Below are positions 2,586-14,669 of a stretch of 38,895 bases of DNA, in pieces. Under the pieces are notes generated by a model that was not told where the DNA came from, ran no database searches, and was given only the letters and a program-made list of their open reading frames with translations. Positions within the stretch are counted from its first letter, which is position 1. Each line of letters starts with the position of its first letter. This DNA is from a virus: positions 1-38,895 of the IMG/VR virus record IMGVR_UViG_3300028388_001251; one strand, given 5' to 3'. Made by a program: the position numbers and the translations under genes.

Positions 2586-3473
2586 ATGGCACAAGTCAGC
2601 CACATCCACACCGCTCAGTCAGCCACTCACACCAGCCCGCTGCGCCGCAGCGCCATGCTCGTGAAGGTCAGCGTGACCAAGCCCACCACCAGTCGGGCGA
2701 ACAAACGTGTCCGTGACGAGGTCGCGCGTGACAAGTCAGCCGACAGCGACAGCGTGTCGGTGCACAACCGCATCCTGTCCAAGAGTTTTACGCAGCCCCT
2801 CGATCAGGTCTGCGCCAAGGCGCGTCAGCTCCTCAACGAACGTGCGCTGCCGTGGGACGACGACGGCTGGCGTGTGCTCAAGAAAACCGACTTCATGCAG
2901 CTGAAGCAGGACATTGCCGCTATCGAGCAGGAGCTGAAGAACGCCGTGATGGCCCAGCTCTCCAACTACCCCTACGAGGTACAGCGGGCGAAACAACGTT
3001 TGGGCTCCATGTTCGACCCGAAGCACTACCCATCCACCGGAGAGATTCTCTCCAAGTACAGCATCACGCTGCGGCACCAGCCGTTCCCGGACGCGGAGGA
3101 CTACAGGGCCGACGTGGCAGACAACGTCGGGGCGGCCATCGCTCAGCAGGCGCGGGACGAGTACGCCGCGCAGTACACCGAGGGGCTCAACGATGTCGTG
3201 GCCGAGTTCGGAAAGCTGGCTGCCGATGCCGTGGAGCGCCTCGAAGGTGGGCGACTCACGTCGGTGCTCGACAATCTGGTCAGCATGGGCAACAAGCTCG
3301 ACAGCTTGAACCTGACCGGCGACCCCAAGGTGACGCGCCTGTCTGCCGAGGCACGTCGGCGCCTGACCAGCATCACCGACCGTCCGGCGCTCGCAAAGGA
3401 CAAGACTCTGCGCAAAGCAGCAGCCGAGGACGTGAAGTCCCTGATCGACGACTTCTCTGACATGTGGGCGTAA
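2586..3473 (+). CDS. Unknown protein of the MoxR-VWA module
   Basis: This 295-residue protein is not recognised. It is charged and mostly helical. It has a basic N-terminus (about 20-55), a long helical stretch around the AIEQELKNAVMAQL segment, and a second helical half ending in DDFSDMWA. No catalytic motif, signal peptide or membrane segment is visible. I chose the ATG at 2586, nine bases after AAGGAGG; an in-frame GTG at 2529 lies inside the palindrome and is unlikely. Its place between a MoxR-type ATPase and its VWA partner suggests it is the third part of that complex, perhaps an adaptor. That is inference from position. Confidence 0.8.
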   Translation: MAQVSHIHTAQSATHTSPLRRSAMLVKVSVTKPTTSRANKRVRDEVARDKSADSDSVSVHNRILSKSFTQPLDQVCAKARQLLNERALPWDDDGWRVLKKTDFMQLKQDIAAIEQELKNAVMAQLSNYPYEVQRAKQRLGSMFDPKHYPSTGEILSKYSITLRHQPFPDAEDYRADVADNVGAAIAQQARDEYAAQYTEGLNDVVAEFGKLAADAVERLEGGRLTSVLDNLVSMGNKLDSLNLTGDPKVTRLSAEARRRLTSITDRPALAKDKTLRKAAAEDVKSLIDDFSDMWA

Positions 3474-3482
3474 GCCCACTTT

Positions 3483-3503
3483 TCTGTGACACCTTGTCAC
3501 AAA
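3483..3503. promoter_or_regulatory. Early-region palindrome, copy 4
   Basis: TCTGTGAC-ACCTT-GTCACAAA, with one mismatch in the left arm. It starts 10 bases after the previous stop codon and ends 25 bases before the ATG at 3529. Unlike most copies it is not followed by CTACTTAC. Confidence 0.7.
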
Positions 3504-3528
3504 CCACTCACCCATAGAGGTAACAGCT

Positions 3529-4860
3529 ATGAAGTTCACACCCGCCGAGCCCACCTACGAGCAGCGCACCCAGATCAGCAAGGCGCTGGGCAGGCTCAGT
3601 CTGACCAACCGGTTCTACGCAGAGGTACTCGGGCGACTGCCCGTCTACTTCACCGAAGACGTAGGCACCGCCGGCACCGACGGCATAGCGTTCTACTTCT
3701 CTCCGAGTTTCATGGAGAGGTACGACATGACCTTGGAGCAGGCGATGTTCGTCATGGCCCACGAGGTCGAGCACGTGGTGCTTGAGCATCCTGCACGTCG
3801 GGGCAGCGCTGACCCGATGGACTACAACATCGCTGGCGACGAGCGCATCAACAACAACTTGTTCGCCGCAGGCATGAAAGGCCCGACCGACGAGAACGGC
3901 AAGTTCATGGGCTACGCAAGCTCCAAGTACGCCGACCAGTCATGGTCCACCGAGCTGATTTTTCGTGACCGCGAACAGAACAAGCCCACGCCTCCCCCTC
4001 CCCCGCCGGGAGGTGAGGGTGACTCCAGTGACGATGGTGGTGACCAAGGGCAAGGCCAAGGTGACGACGGCGCTGGGGATCAGTCCGGTACTACAGAGCC
4101 GGGCGGCCAGCCGACCACCATGCCCAACGGTGTGGAGGACATCTTCGCTGGTGACGTGATCCAGCCCACCGACGAGAACGGCAAGCCCCTGACCGGTGCC
4201 GACTTGGCTGAGGCGCACAACGCCGTCAAGGGAGCCATCCTGTCCGCGGCGGCGGCCACCCGTGCCATCGACCCCGGCCTGATCCCAGCGCATCTGCGCG
4301 GTCCACTGGCTGAGCTTGTCGAGCCCGAGGTCGACTGGGTGGAGGTCATGCGCCCCTACATGTCAGCCACAGCACAAGACGATGAGAGCTGGGACATGCT
4401 CGACCAGCGCATGATCTCCCGACGCATCGCCATGCCGAGGCTTCACTCGGTTCGCGCTGGCACCGTCGGCGTCATCGTCGACACGTCCGGGTCATGCCGT
4501 GCACACATCGGCCCATTCCTGTCCGAGCTGTGCGCTCTGGCGGCCGAGGTCGAGCCCGAGGGCATCCGTGTGATTTTCATCGACACCGAGGTCCAGCACG
4601 ACATCACGACCACGCCGGAGGACTTCGAGGCGGACCTGTCCGAGCTGATGGCCAACCCGCCCTACGGTGGCGGCACTGACCTGCGCCCGGCGTTCGACGT
4701 GCTGGCCGACGTCGACGATCTCGAGTGCGTCCTGTGCATGACCGACATGATGACGCCCTTCCCCGACGTCGACTATCTCCATGCCGATGACACGCTATTC
4801 CTCGACACCTACGGGCGCATCGACGCGCCCTTCGGCGAGAAGGTCCTCATCGGCCGATAG
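3529..4860 (+). CDS. Putative metallopeptidase and VWA-domain protein (DUF2201-like)
   Basis: A 443-residue two-domain protein. The N-terminal part has a zincin-like HEVEH motif (78-82), followed by HPARRG and an aspartate in the DYNIAGDERIN segment, the pattern of DUF2201-type putative metallopeptidases. A proline-, glycine- and aspartate-rich linker (about 150-190) leads to a VWA-like domain with a MIDAS motif DTSGS (318-322), a GGGTD loop and a later TDMM segment. VWA proteins of this kind pair with MoxR ATPases, and one is encoded 1 kb upstream. A likely role is protein complex remodelling or proteolysis early in infection; the substrate cannot be told. AGAGGT lies upstream of the ATG at 3529. 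Confidence 0.85.
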   Translation: MKFTPAEPTYEQRTQISKALGRLSLTNRFYAEVLGRLPVYFTEDVGTAGTDGIAFYFSPSFMERYDMTLEQAMFVMAHEVEHVVLEHPARRGSADPMDYNIAGDERINNNLFAAGMKGPTDENGKFMGYASSKYADQSWSTELIFRDREQNKPTPPPPPPGGEGDSSDDGGDQGQGQGDDGAGDQSGTTEPGGQPTTMPNGVEDIFAGDVIQPTDENGKPLTGADLAEAHNAVKGAILSAAAATRAIDPGLIPAHLRGPLAELVEPEVDWVEVMRPYMSATAQDDESWDMLDQRMISRRIAMPRLHSVRAGTVGVIVDTSGSCRAHIGPFLSELCALAAEVEPEGIRVIFIDTEVQHDITTTPEDFEADLSELMANPPYGGGTDLRPAFDVLADVDDLECVLCMTDMMTPFPDVDYLHADDTLFLDTYGRIDAPFGEKVLIGR

Positions 4861-9648: not shown

Positions 9649-9932
9649 TGGGTAACTCCAATTTCATCATCGAAGATTCAAAGCCGCTACCACCAAAGCG
9701 CAAGCCGAAGTACCCCTTCGCTGCAATGGAGGTCGGCCAGTCGTTCCAGATACCCATCACGGACGCCGACGTGGAAGAGCATGGTGATGAGTCCACTGCA
9801 TTGGCCCGGGTGCGCAGTGCTGTTTCGTCCAGCGCCGCGGCGTTCAACCGTCAGGGTCTGGGCAGGAAGATCGTCGTACGAAAGACCGGCGAGCGCTCTC
9901 TGCGCTGCTGGTGTGTGCCGGCCGACTACTGA
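9648..9932 (+). CDS. Small conserved-type phage protein before the polymerase
   Basis: A 94-residue protein. A short polar N-terminus leads to the segment KYPFAAMEVGQSFQIP, then a helical stretch and a basic beta C-terminus (GRKIVVRKTGERSLRCWCV). Proteins of this shape occur near phage replication genes and may bind nucleic acid, judging by the basic C-terminus; that is inference. Start ATG 9648 overlaps the previous stop, and its own stop overlaps the polymerase start (TGATG). Confidence 0.65.
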   Translation: MGNSNFIIEDSKPLPPKRKPKYPFAAMEVGQSFQIPITDADVEEHGDESTALARVRSAVSSSAAAFNRQGLGRKIVVRKTGERSLRCWCVPADY

Positions 9933-12784
9933 TGGCATGGGAAGCGTTCGACGTCGAGACAGACGGCGAGCTGCGGGAGTACGCCCTGCAGCCGTGGCGA
10001 GTGAAGGACCGTCAAGCATGGCTGACCTCTTGGTCGGTGTCATCGAACGAAGGCAACCGGGTGACTTTCGCGCCGGAGCACCCTCGGGATACAGCCAACC
10101 TGTTGCGTCCTTTGGTAGAGCGTTGGCTCGACGAGAAGACCACCGTCTGCCTCTGGAACGGCGTGTTCGATGTGTCGTGGCTCTATGCCTATGGGTTCGC
10201 CGACTGGCTCACGCAGGTCAAGTGGCTCGACGGCATGCTGCTTTGGCGGCACATCGAGAACCAGCCGCAGTACGGGGTCGCCGCCGATAAGCGCACGTCG
10301 TTCGGGCTGAAGCGCGCCGTCGAACATTACCTGCCGCAGTACGCTGGCTATGAGGAAGGCGTTGATTTCAGTGGCAGCGACCCCCTGATGCTGCTGCACT
10401 ACAACGCGTGCGATACATGGTTCACCCGGGCGCTGACTCGTCACTTCTACCTCCAGCTGGAGAAAGAGCCCCGTCGGCTCAAGGCGGCGCTGATCGAGGC
10501 GCACAGCATCCCGCTGATAGCACGAACTGTTTACGAGGGGATGGAGATTGACCACGACGGTCTGGACTCCCTCGACGAGTACCTCCAGCAAACTGCCGCT
10601 GATCGGCTGGCCCAGCTGAAGCCTCATGGTGCCACTGACAAGGTGCTGGCATCGCCGAAGCAACTGTCGGAGCTGCTGTTCGAGGACTGGGGCCTGACCC
10701 CGCTCAAGCACGGCAAGACTGGCCCGAGTACCGACAAGGAAACGCTGGTTGAGCTGGCCCAGAAGGACGACCGGATGCTCCTGATCCACCAGTACCGTGA
10801 GGCCAAGGGCAACCACAAGAAGTTCTGCGTCAACGTGCGCGCCGCGGCTGAGTACAACAACGACGGTCGGGCACACCCCGAGGCCAAGGTGTTCGGCACG
10901 TACACTGGCCGGGTCACTTACGCGTCGGCGCAAGGCAGGAACAAGGATCGCCGGCAAACTGGTTGGGCGCTCCACCAGATGAAGCGTGACCCCGAGTACC
11001 GCCGACTGATCAAGGCCCCCAATGGCTACCAGATAGTGGAGCTGGATGCCGCAGGTCAGGAGTTCCGGTGGATGGCCGAGCTGTCCGGCGACCCGACAAT
11101 GCGAGCGCTGTGCCAGCCCGGCGAGGACCCTCACAGCTACATGGGTGCGCAGGTCGGCAACCTCGAGTACCGCGAAGTGCAGGAAGGCGCCGGCAAGGAC
11201 AAACACCTGAAGGCTATCCGACAGGTGGGCAAGGTGGCGAACCTGTGCGTCGCAGCAGATACGCTGGTGCTGACTGATCGAGGTTACACCCCAATCGTAG
11301 ATGTCACGCTGGCTGATCTGGTGTGGGACGGGGTTGAGTTTGTCCGACACGAGGGCGTTGTGTGCAGCGGTGTACGTCCGGTACTGCAGTATCGTGGCAT
11401 AATTGCTACGCCTGATCATCAGGTGTTGGTCAACGGACAATGGGTGAGCTTGGATGAAGCGGCAAGACATGGTTGGCAAATCGAATCCGCGCTGGGCACG
11501 GGATGGGCGTGTAAAGCGCGGGCAGTTGTTCGGATCATGGGAGGTGTTGTCCGACGAGCCGTTTCCGAAGCACGGAGCACTTTACGTTCTGGCTCGGTGC
11601 TCATGCTCGACCGAGCGGGAGGTGAGCCTGCGTTCTCTGGAGACAGGCAAGTCCAGTCAGTGCAAAAGCTGCGCTGTAAGGGGCAGGCACACCCGCACAG
11701 GACATCTGATCGTGAAGGATGCACGACTGAGGCGCCTGCAGAAGCGAACGAACGACTGGTTCCAGCGGTGCAACAACCCCAACTCTCAATCCTATCGCAA
11801 CTATGGGGCGCGTGGCATCGAGTGCCGTTTCGAGTCGGTCGCTGCTTGCGTGACCTATGTGTTGGAGAACTTACCCCACGACACCTATCTTGGCGTGGAC
11901 ATCGACAGGATCGACAACAACGGGCACTACGAACCCGGGAATCTGCGTCTGGTTTCTCGGGCGCAGAACCTGCGCAACACAAGGCGCACTACGCATGTGC
12001 TGTGGCGGGGCAGGCAAATACTTTTGCAGGACTGGGCGGAGAACCCCTACGCTCTGACCACAGCGGGGCGCTATGTCGCGCAGGGAATGACCGGCGAAGC
12101 GATTTTGCAGAAGGCTCGTCAGGCCGTGCAGGAGAAGCGCAAAGGCTGGACGCAGATTCAAGAACGGTTGAGCCAGTCTACGACATCGTAAACTGCGGCC
12201 CACGAACACGATTCGCAGCCAACGGAGTGATTGTCCACAACTCACTCCAGTTCCGCACCAGTGCGCCACGCCTGCTGTCGGCGGCGCGGGTCAACCACGG
12301 CATGATGGACATGACTCTGCCGAAGGCAACTCACATCCGCAACACCTACCTCCGGGCGTACCGGGGCGTGCCGGAGTATTGGCAGCGCCAGATCGCGTTC
12401 CTTACAGCCAACAACTATGTGAAAACGCTGGCAGGCAGGAAGGTGGTGGTTCCGCCCCGGCTGCAGTCAATGTTCGAGTGGTCGACGCAGTCTACGAGCA
12501 TCAACTTTCCTGTACAGGGCACCGGCGGCGATCAGAAGTACCTAGCCATGTCGGTCATCCGACCACTGCTGCTGCAGCTCGATGCGATCTTCCTGTTCGA
12601 CCTTCACGACGGCCTGTACTTCCTCGTCCCTGACGCTGCGGTCGACGAGTTCATCACGAAAGCCAAGTACCTGTTCGACAACCTGCCCTACGAAAAAGCG
12701 TGGGGCATCATCCCGAGTATCCCACTTCCGTGGGACGTAAAGGTAGGCCCCACTTGGGGCACTATGGAGGAGCTGGACCTATGA
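9932..12784 (+). CDS. Family A DNA polymerase interrupted by an intein
   Basis: Replicative DNA polymerase of the Pol I family, 950 residues as translated and 618 after removal of the 332-residue intein. The 3'-5' exonuclease domain is complete: D7-V-E9, D80 and Y157-N-A-C-D161 (DEDDy). Polymerase motif A is D372-A-A-G-Q-E-F-R379. Motif B reads R430, K434-V-A-N-L438, then the intein (439-770), then S771-L-Q-F. Motif C is H892-D893-G894, with glycine where most family members have glutamate. L438 aligns with E. coli Pol I Phe762, so this is a Leu762-type enzyme. No 5'-3' exonuclease domain. Activity should depend on protein splicing. The start overlaps the previous stop (TGATG). Forms the replication core with the primase-helicase at 18916. 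Confidence 0.93.
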   Translation: MAWEAFDVETDGELREYALQPWRVKDRQAWLTSWSVSSNEGNRVTFAPEHPRDTANLLRPLVERWLDEKTTVCLWNGVFDVSWLYAYGFADWLTQVKWLDGMLLWRHIENQPQYGVAADKRTSFGLKRAVEHYLPQYAGYEEGVDFSGSDPLMLLHYNACDTWFTRALTRHFYLQLEKEPRRLKAALIEAHSIPLIARTVYEGMEIDHDGLDSLDEYLQQTAADRLAQLKPHGATDKVLASPKQLSELLFEDWGLTPLKHGKTGPSTDKETLVELAQKDDRMLLIHQYREAKGNHKKFCVNVRAAAEYNNDGRAHPEAKVFGTYTGRVTYASAQGRNKDRRQTGWALHQMKRDPEYRRLIKAPNGYQIVELDAAGQEFRWMAELSGDPTMRALCQPGEDPHSYMGAQVGNLEYREVQEGAGKDKHLKAIRQVGKVANLCVAADTLVLTDRGYTPIVDVTLADLVWDGVEFVRHEGVVCSGVRPVLQYRGIIATPDHQVLVNGQWVSLDEAARHGWQIESALGTGWACKARAVVRIMGGVVRRAVSEARSTLRSGSVLMLDRAGGEPAFSGDRQVQSVQKLRCKGQAHPHRTSDREGCTTEAPAEANERLVPAVQQPQLSILSQLWGAWHRVPFRVGRCLRDLCVGELTPRHLSWRGHRQDRQQRALRTRESASGFSGAEPAQHKAHYACAVAGQANTFAGLGGEPLRSDHSGALCRAGNDRRSDFAEGSSGRAGEAQRLDADSRTVEPVYDIVNCGPRTRFAANGVIVHNSLQFRTSAPRLLSAARVNHGMMDMTLPKATHIRNTYLRAYRGVPEYWQRQIAFLTANNYVKTLAGRKVVVPPRLQSMFEWSTQSTSINFPVQGTGGDQKYLAMSVIRPLLLQLDAIFLFDLHDGLYFLVPDAAVDEFITKAKYLFDNLPYEKAWGIIPSIPLPWDVKVGPTWGTMEELDL
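11246..12241 (+). mobile_element. Intein in polymerase motif B, with a nested endonuclease gene
   Basis: The inserted 332 codons start with Cys (TGC 11246-11248) in CVAADTLVLTDRGYTPIVDV (block A), have a block B TPDHQVLV with its T and H, and end with block F/G VYDIV...ANGVIVHN, followed by extein Ser. All residues needed for splicing are present. The splice domains span only about the first 75 and last 27 residues. Between them the polymerase frame is open but reads as low-quality, R-, A- and G-rich sequence, because the true coding frame there is the HNH gene at 11454-12191, one base out of frame. The insertion falls just after the residue matching Pol I 762, a known intein hot spot in the catalytic centre. 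Confidence 0.9.
11454..12191 (+). CDS. HNH homing endonuclease nested out of frame in the intein
   Basis: A 245-residue protein in the +1 frame relative to the polymerase. It carries a treble-clef-like zinc site (C49, C51, C70, C73), the conserved RCNNPN...YRNYGARGI segment (105-121) typical of phage HNH homing endonucleases, an HNH core DIDRIDNNGHYEPGN (149-163) followed by a QN-x4-R helix, and a C-terminal NUMOD-like helix-turn-helix (LQDWAENPYALTTAGRY). It has its own ATG with a weak GGTGAG ahead and its own TAA, inside the codons for intein block F. The enzyme should cut intein-free polymerase genes and drive spread of the element. The shadow frame must stay open for the polymerase to be made. 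Confidence 0.88.
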   Translation: MKRQDMVGKSNPRWARDGRVKRGQLFGSWEVLSDEPFPKHGALYVLARCSCSTEREVSLRSLETGKSSQCKSCAVRGRHTRTGHLIVKDARLRRLQKRTNDWFQRCNNPNSQSYRNYGARGIECRFESVAACVTYVLENLPHDTYLGVDIDRIDNNGHYEPGNLRLVSRAQNLRNTRRTTHVLWRGRQILLQDWAENPYALTTAGRYVAQGMTGEAILQKARQAVQEKRKGWTQIQERLSQSTTS

Positions 12785-14182: not shown

Positions 14183-14440
14183 ATGCGATACTGCTTTCGC
14201 CCGAGAGGGCACGAGACACTGTTCCCGATCTTGGCCTACAACCCGAGCAAAAACGAGGTCCGATGTCAGGGGCCTCTGTGCAAGGTGATCATAAGCCTCG
14301 ACGAGGACCCTACGGCTGCACTCAACTGTGAACTGGTAATGGAGGACGGCACCGATGCCCAGCTCAAAGAACTACAAGCGCGACTCGAAGCAAGAGTACA
14401 AGACAGCGAAGGCGAGGGGGGAGAATGGTACGGGCTCTGA
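14183..14440 (+). CDS. Small unknown protein
   Basis: An 85-residue protein with cysteines at 4, 28 and 33 in a short beta-like N-terminus (VRCQGPLCKVI) and a charged helical C-terminus. AAGGAG is well placed before ATG 14183. The last 86 bases overlap the HNH gene in another frame. Function unknown. Confidence 0.65.
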   Translation: MRYCFRPRGHETLFPILAYNPSKNEVRCQGPLCKVIISLDEDPTAALNCELVMEDGTDAQLKELQARLEARVQDSEGEGGEWYGL

Positions 14441-14669
14441 TTCCTCCGACGCCAAACGGAAAAGGGCTCGTCGGGCTGTAAACGCCGAGCGCAAGGCTAA
14501 GGGGTTGCCCCCGCTGAGGTCCGACCAGCATGTGGACCACAAGAAGCCCATAAGCAAGGGCGGGAGCAACGACCGCTCCAACCTGCGGATCACATCCGAG
14601 TCGAAGAACACGTCCTATGCACGCAACAAGGACGGCTCGATCAAAAAGAAGAGGAGCAAGAAAGGATGA
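14355..14669 (+). CDS. HNH endonuclease
   Basis: A 104-residue basic protein. The N-terminal half is lysine- and arginine-rich; the C-terminal half has the HNH core DQHVDHKKPISKGGSNDRSN (58-77) followed by LRITSESKNTSYARNK, with metal-binding His, the central Asn of SNDRSNL and a final Asn. Small HNH enzymes like this nick or cut DNA and serve in phage packaging, recombination or as mobile nucleases. It lies among replication genes, not next to a terminase. GGAGG precedes the ATG. Stop overlaps the next start. Confidence 0.82.
   Translation: MPSSKNYKRDSKQEYKTAKARGENGTGSDSSDAKRKRARRAVNAERKAKGLPPLRSDQHVDHKKPISKGGSNDRSNLRITSESKNTSYARNKDGSIKKKRSKKG

Follow-up and report, generated by a model that had tools for sequence, protein, structure and literature searches.

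The customary picture of a mobile intein is that of a single protein with two functions. The polA locus considered here lies in the window, which is an entire virus record of IMG/VR with a length of 38,895 bases, and it raises the question of whether splicing and endonuclease functions can instead be held by two overlapping genes, and, if so, whether this is a local peculiarity or the rule of a wider group of inteins.

The polA intein of the window

The window polA gene is one continuous frame, running from the ATG at 9932 to the stop at 12784 without an internal stop and straight through an intein (table 1). The insertion point lies in polymerase motif B (GKVANL^SLQFRTS). Blocks A, B, F and G are all present, together with C1, TxxH, a terminal HN and a +1 residue of the C/S/T type. 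The N-block follows the pattern C1 ...VLT..GY..I.DV... (CVAADTLVLTDRGYTPIVDV), and further blocks in the polymerase frame read ATPDHQVLV (the block with TPDHQVLV) and VYDIVNCGPRTRFAANGVIVHN^S. The penultimate His, substituted in some relatives, is kept in the window, and the Pfam intein match for the insert falls under the cut-off. The host site is conserved and has intein-free homologues, with L176 and L177 continuous across the insertion point (GGKFGNLSCQYRI, CGKFCNLSYQYRV). A protein search of viral contigs with the C-extein returned two relatives only, both intein-free, and megablast of the window polA against named phages gave no close DNA relative. The product predicted after splicing has 618 aa (950-332).

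Table 1. Features of the polA locus, in window positions.
Feature	Position	Strand	Remarks
polA (family A DNA polymerase)	9932..12784	+	950-aa precursor; Pfam DNA_pol_A E=4e-41
Intein	11246..12241	+	332 aa, Cys1 to Asn, +1 residue Ser; contiguous
Hint domain, N-terminal half (blocks A-B)	11246..11497	+	AlphaFold2 pLDDT ~97 (residues 1-80); alignment A1
Shine-Dalgarno-like GGTGA	11443..11447	+	6 nt before HNH ATG 11454
Nested HNH-type endonuclease gene	11454..12191	+	245 aa, ATG to TAA; phrog_374 E=6.5e-30; AlphaFold2 mean pLDDT 91.5
Dual-read linker	11498..12145	+	splice frame open, predicted unstructured (AlphaFold2 pLDDT <50); HNH frame encodes the nuclease domain
Hint domain, C-terminal half (blocks F and G)	12146..12241	+	AlphaFold2 pLDDT ~95; alignment A2

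The nested HNH gene begins 208 nt from C1 and is therefore +1 relative to the intein frame (208 mod 3 = 1). Its TAA stop (12189-12191) sits within ATC GTA AAC, the codons for I-V-N of block F, and its last ~13 codons, stop included, overlap the C-terminal splice half. On all these points the original prediction proves correct: it had placed the intein and its splice blocks in the polymerase frame at the coordinates of table 1, had seen a complete 245-aa HNH gene with its own ATG and TAA one base out of frame, had located its stop in the codons of block F, and had given the spliced length that the arithmetic yields.

The HNH protein has conserved Cys residues (Cys pairs) and DRIDNNGHYEPGNLR, an HNH-type motif, and no Pfam or NCBIfam match was obtained with it. 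Foldseek of its model against the PDB gave no solved relative, and a PDB sequence search with the protein found a weak match to I-HmuI only (E=0.3). Because no solved structure resembles the model, the nuclease label is taken from PHROG profiles and the conserved motifs. Elsewhere in the window another short HNH-like ORF (DHKKPISKGGSNDRSNLRI), at 14355-14669, runs in a different frame across the end of the ORF at 14183-14440.

The two readings of this DNA were also modelled. AlphaFold2, run on the intein frame with a 51-sequence alignment, predicts confident structure at residues 1-80 and 301-332 (table 1) and mostly pLDDT <50 at residues 86-300. The top Foldseek matches of this model are nearly all mini-inteins (prob 1.00), consistent with a predicted Hint fold. 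In the model of the HNH frame of the same DNA, disorder is confined to residues 1-16, and the modelled end of the structured intein N part roughly coincides with the start of the structured HNH part.

Distribution of the nested layout

The original prediction proposed a tblastn search for the same layout in other phage polA inteins, and it is readily found. With the HNH protein as query, matches in named phages fall within genes labelled 'DNA polymerase', and HNH is out of frame inside an intein in every named phage examined (SO-1, EP23, Pubbukkers, EBPR siphovirus 2, Vibrio 97.13, a Streptococcus phage and a Gardnerella phage). Among 80 viral contigs retrieved through the HNH protein, ~30 have HNH nested in an open ORF of 600-1366 aa, nearly all of these with intein blocks; the remainder mostly have a free-standing HNH gene with the alternative frames closed.

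Two collections of family members were assembled. A scan for the splicing domain, blind to HNH, confirmed at least 581 stretches, and the best 80 of these at least 581, together with profile searches, make up a first set of at least 92 distinct full inteins, in which HNH is at +1 in 67, at +2 in 25 and in frame in none; at least 11 distinct mini-inteins or remnants accompany them. The second set comes from bacterial genomes, scanned with A5, an alignment narrower than the broad A1, and from further named phages (APSE-1, APSE-2, Caulobacter RW, Shewanella SFCi1 and Pseudomonas MR14). It holds 59 distinct inteins, 58 at +1, one at +2 and again none in frame. In total, at least 151 distinct inteins from viral contigs, bacterial genomes and named phages have HNH out of frame and none has it in frame, duplicates having been dropped within each set and not across the two. 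Three in-frame candidates, L047, L078 and L079, are HNH loci with long same-frame ORFs and proved to have no intein or polymerase domain; neither in the window nor in any family member found does the endonuclease share the frame of the splicing domain.

The inteins sit in polA (at several different sites), in SF2 helicases and in one DnaB-like gene, and few members belong to actinobacteriophages. The position of the HNH gene is constant across the family, between blocks B and F; the layout is clustered on the tree, with offsets that differ between clades. Several of the records inspected, among them EP23, Pubbukkers, APSE-2 and Caulobacter RW, carry no annotation of the HNH gene. An out-of-frame nested HNH is thus the normal arrangement in a large and widespread family of phage inteins, and the suggestion that the arrangement might be rare does not hold.

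Some members have a much reduced insert. Mini-inteins of 111-169 aa occupy sites where sister inteins have ~310 aa (L126/L113 and L165; L128 and L124; L145 and Javan422, with partial HNH), and they look like secondary losses of HNH. Two inteins per polymerase gene were observed in L143, L158 and L160, one with a nested HNH (or remnant) and one a mini-intein. In L096 (1925-5413), a helicase-family ORF with a nested intein has a Hom_end_hint domain (Pfam PF05203) upstream.

Constraint on two reading frames

Dependence between the frames was measured by synonymous-codon shuffling of the HNH gene, which keeps the protein and the codon use and destroys inter-frame dependence. No stop occurs in the splice frame over the window HNH gene, where 7.05 (sd 2.1) are expected (P=5e-5, 20,000 shuffles), while the third frame, taken as control, has 9 against 7.2. 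The same holds for the first family set (splice frame 0 against 848; third frame 1336 against 1284) and for the second (0 against 626; 895 against 854). Both sets together have 0 stops in the splice frame where the shuffles predict ~1473, a count over related members and so not one of independent trials, although the P value given above for the window alone is unaffected by this; entry into the full sets required both splice blocks in one ORF, which leaves split forms outside by definition. In 35 free-standing HNH genes, used as controls, the alternative frames are about at expectation (226 against 217 and 392 against 449).

The distribution of variation tells the two ends of the intein from its middle. 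Among close relatives, differences in the N splice block fall mainly on third codon positions of the splice frame (0.26, against 0.06-0.07 elsewhere), and those in the HNH region on third codon positions of the HNH frame (0.24, against 0.07-0.10). A comparison with L250 (3498-4493 of an alphaproteobacterial MAG contig), an intein of about equal length at the window's polA site, gives identities of 58% for HNH, 32% for the splice-frame linker, 66% for the splice N block and 80% for the C block. Both patterns point to protein-level selection that acts on the HNH frame in mid-intein and, towards either end, on the splice frame, the splice frame of the linker being held mainly against stops. Some 200 codons or more are under two-frame constraint, one frame encoding a folded enzyme and the other only stop-free. 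Stop depletion, codon-position variation and the models of both frames therefore bear out two readings offered for this locus at the outset, an open polymerase frame that serves as a low-quality linker and a constraint acting on both frames.

Four other explanations of the locus can be weighed against these data. The one that survives best, though we regard it as improbable, takes HNH for a dead passenger, a decayed and no longer expressed free-standing endonuclease trapped in the intein, with its own frame open by chance. Decay does occur in the family: the L250 HNH frame contains a TAA while its intein frame is open, HNH is truncated in L002, and there are the several mini-inteins. Against this, the window gene is intact and retains its Shine-Dalgarno sequence and motifs, protein-level conservation in mid-intein falls on the HNH frame, and HNH is uninterrupted in most members (in two pieces in 1 of 106 intein rows).

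Somewhat less probable still is a programmed frameshift that fuses HNH to the intein, which would make it a conventional large intein translated with a change of frame. In 54 of 91 family members, against a background of 7% at random positions, a Shine-Dalgarno match of at least 5 nt stands at the proper distance upstream of the first start codon (ATG or GTG) in the HNH frame, and the longest matches reach AAGGAGGT, in L009 and L124. This enrichment argues for internal initiation of HNH and against a fusion, as do the gene's own start and own stop across the family. To reach the C half, moreover, translation would need two shifts, one in and one back, and yet the splice frame is kept open; HNH offsets vary between clades, and mini-inteins retain the splice frame only.

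Phage polymerase genes are well known for group I introns that carry HNH genes. An intron of this kind with an intronic HNH gene, the open polymerase frame being incidental, is nevertheless a very remote explanation of the insert. It draws on the note 'type I self-splicing intron' in the Sodalis phage SO-1 gp38/gp39 record (L001), but, despite this label, the SO-1 insert is an intein inside which HNH lies nested out of frame. No Rfam match was found at E<=1 in the window, nor did five relatives, SO-1 among them, give any at gathering score. The complete intein blocks, with conserved C1, TxxH and HN^S/C, also speak against an intron, as do an open frame under selection and the predicted Hint structure. 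Finally, indels from assembly or sequencing that moved an in-frame HNH out of frame, the outcome that the original prediction had named as fatal to its reading and a conceivable one for a single metagenome-derived record, have next to no chance of being the cause, since the layout recurs in at least 151 distinct inteins, taken from isolates as well as from complete genomes and metagenomes, and a stop-free splice frame is unlike the outcome of random indels.

Mechanism, origin and related systems

The reading that we favour, and hold to be very probable, is a two-gene homing intein, with splicing and endonuclease functions in two overlapping genes and not in one fused protein. The precursor made from the polymerase frame would consist of the Hint N-half, a long unstructured linker and the C-half, and would splice in cis out of polA motif B. 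The HNH endonuclease would be translated separately, from its own Shine-Dalgarno sequence and ATG within the polA mRNA, and the free protein may cut intein-free polA alleles of co-infecting phages or prophages. Repair after cleavage would then copy the entire intein. Splicing and homing would in this way be kept genetically apart on shared bases, phage-wide.

As to origin, the original prediction envisaged a mini-intein invaded by a free-standing HNH gene. As a recent local event this is not supported, since the layout is shared family-wide, tree-clustered, old and inherited, and since the mini-inteins look like secondary losses; an ancient original invasion is the likeliest ultimate origin. 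We put forward that a complete free-standing HNH gene with its own stop entered an intein. Given that stop, insertion in frame would truncate an essential polymerase, and only an out-of-frame, stop-free reading would be tolerated; the absence of any in-frame case fits such a rule. This suggests a concrete way for a free-standing endonuclease gene to enter an intein with the host gene surviving. Later fates can be seen as well: deletion of HNH yields a mini-intein, and a nonsense mutation in HNH spares the intein.

Comparison with known systems sets the family apart in several respects. Large bifunctional inteins, with an in-frame LAGLIDADG or, in some, HNH endonuclease, likewise have Hint blocks, an endonuclease between B and F and, presumably in the present family too, homing mobility. 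In the window family, by contrast, the endonuclease has a gene to itself, complete with start and stop codons and read in a different frame, what is inserted in the splice frame is predicted to be an unstructured linker, and in-frame cases are absent. The ShiLan domain and the Pacc40 insertion are out-of-frame HNH genes in phage methylase genes; no splicing domain was detected there, and by the authors' expectation the insert is retained in the protein (PMC11855218). They share with the window family an out-of-frame HNH gene in an open host frame and a disjunct distribution, but the window HNH gene is enclosed by a complete Hint domain, which places it outside the ShiLan type.

The architecture of the window intein can also be recognized in deposited records. 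In that of APSE-1 (NC_000935.1), the DNA polymerase P45 has an annotated nested HNH gene, P46, and both APSE-1 P45/P46 and SO-1 gp38/gp39 were deposited as overlapping genes, at polA insertion sites other than that of the window intein. A 2025 preprint by Gosselin, Arsenault and Gogarten concerns actinobacteriophage inteins of 'non-canonical architecture' (10.1101/2025.01.02.630785, cited in PMC11855218); its title and the sentence citing it, on overlapping reading frames, suggest that it may cover related cases. A full-text literature search, within a reach that included neither this preprint nor Dassa et al. 2009, found no paper on inteins with out-of-frame endonucleases. Nested HNH genes were, however, on record before, in the APSE-1 and SO-1 entries.

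The layout is not confined to one intein lineage. Terminase large-subunit genes in L254 (2121-4553), L257 (1576-4062) and L260 (1382-3832) contain an unrelated intein (ESHDDL^C...HN^C) in which an unrelated HNH_3/NUMOD3 endonuclease gene is nested at +2. The synonymous shuffle of L254 alone is not significant (0 stops against 1.3 expected, P=0.20), and the case for this intein lies in the arrangement itself and in finding it again in L257 and L260. These terminase inteins, with their unrelated HNH_3, indicate that the layout probably arose at least twice.

Split forms of the polA-type family complete the picture. In L012, L021, L031 and L132 (first intein) the intein is split with HNH between the halves: the IntN ORF stops ~110 aa past C1, HNH is read at +1, and IntC, in the third frame, may start at an ATG just upstream of VYDx. 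Such forms could have arisen through breaks in the linker. Fractured genes, in which a free-standing endonuclease gene lies between the halves of a split intein, go back to Dassa et al. 2009, as cited in PMC6892783, and PolB of phage MIJ3 has such a split arrangement (PMC6892783). The four loci, with a separate endonuclease between IntN and IntC in two ORFs, resemble published forms of this kind such as MIJ3 PolB, whereas the window and at least 150 others have one uninterrupted host and intein frame, with splicing predicted in cis. A broader proposition, which in our judgement could fall either way, is that of a large intein class in which the endonuclease is always overlapping and independently translated, never fused, under a rule set by the invader's stop codon; it would have arisen at least twice (the polA/helicase family, and the unrelated terminase intein with its unrelated HNH_3), and its breakdown would be one route to split inteins with an intervening endonuclease gene. 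Nested, decayed, deleted and split forms would then offer a natural series for the homing cycle and for the birth of split inteins. One more split polA intein was observed, in L157 (~3292-3980), where the gap has no HNH but a short separate ORF, and where a nested HNH intein follows downstream in the same gene.
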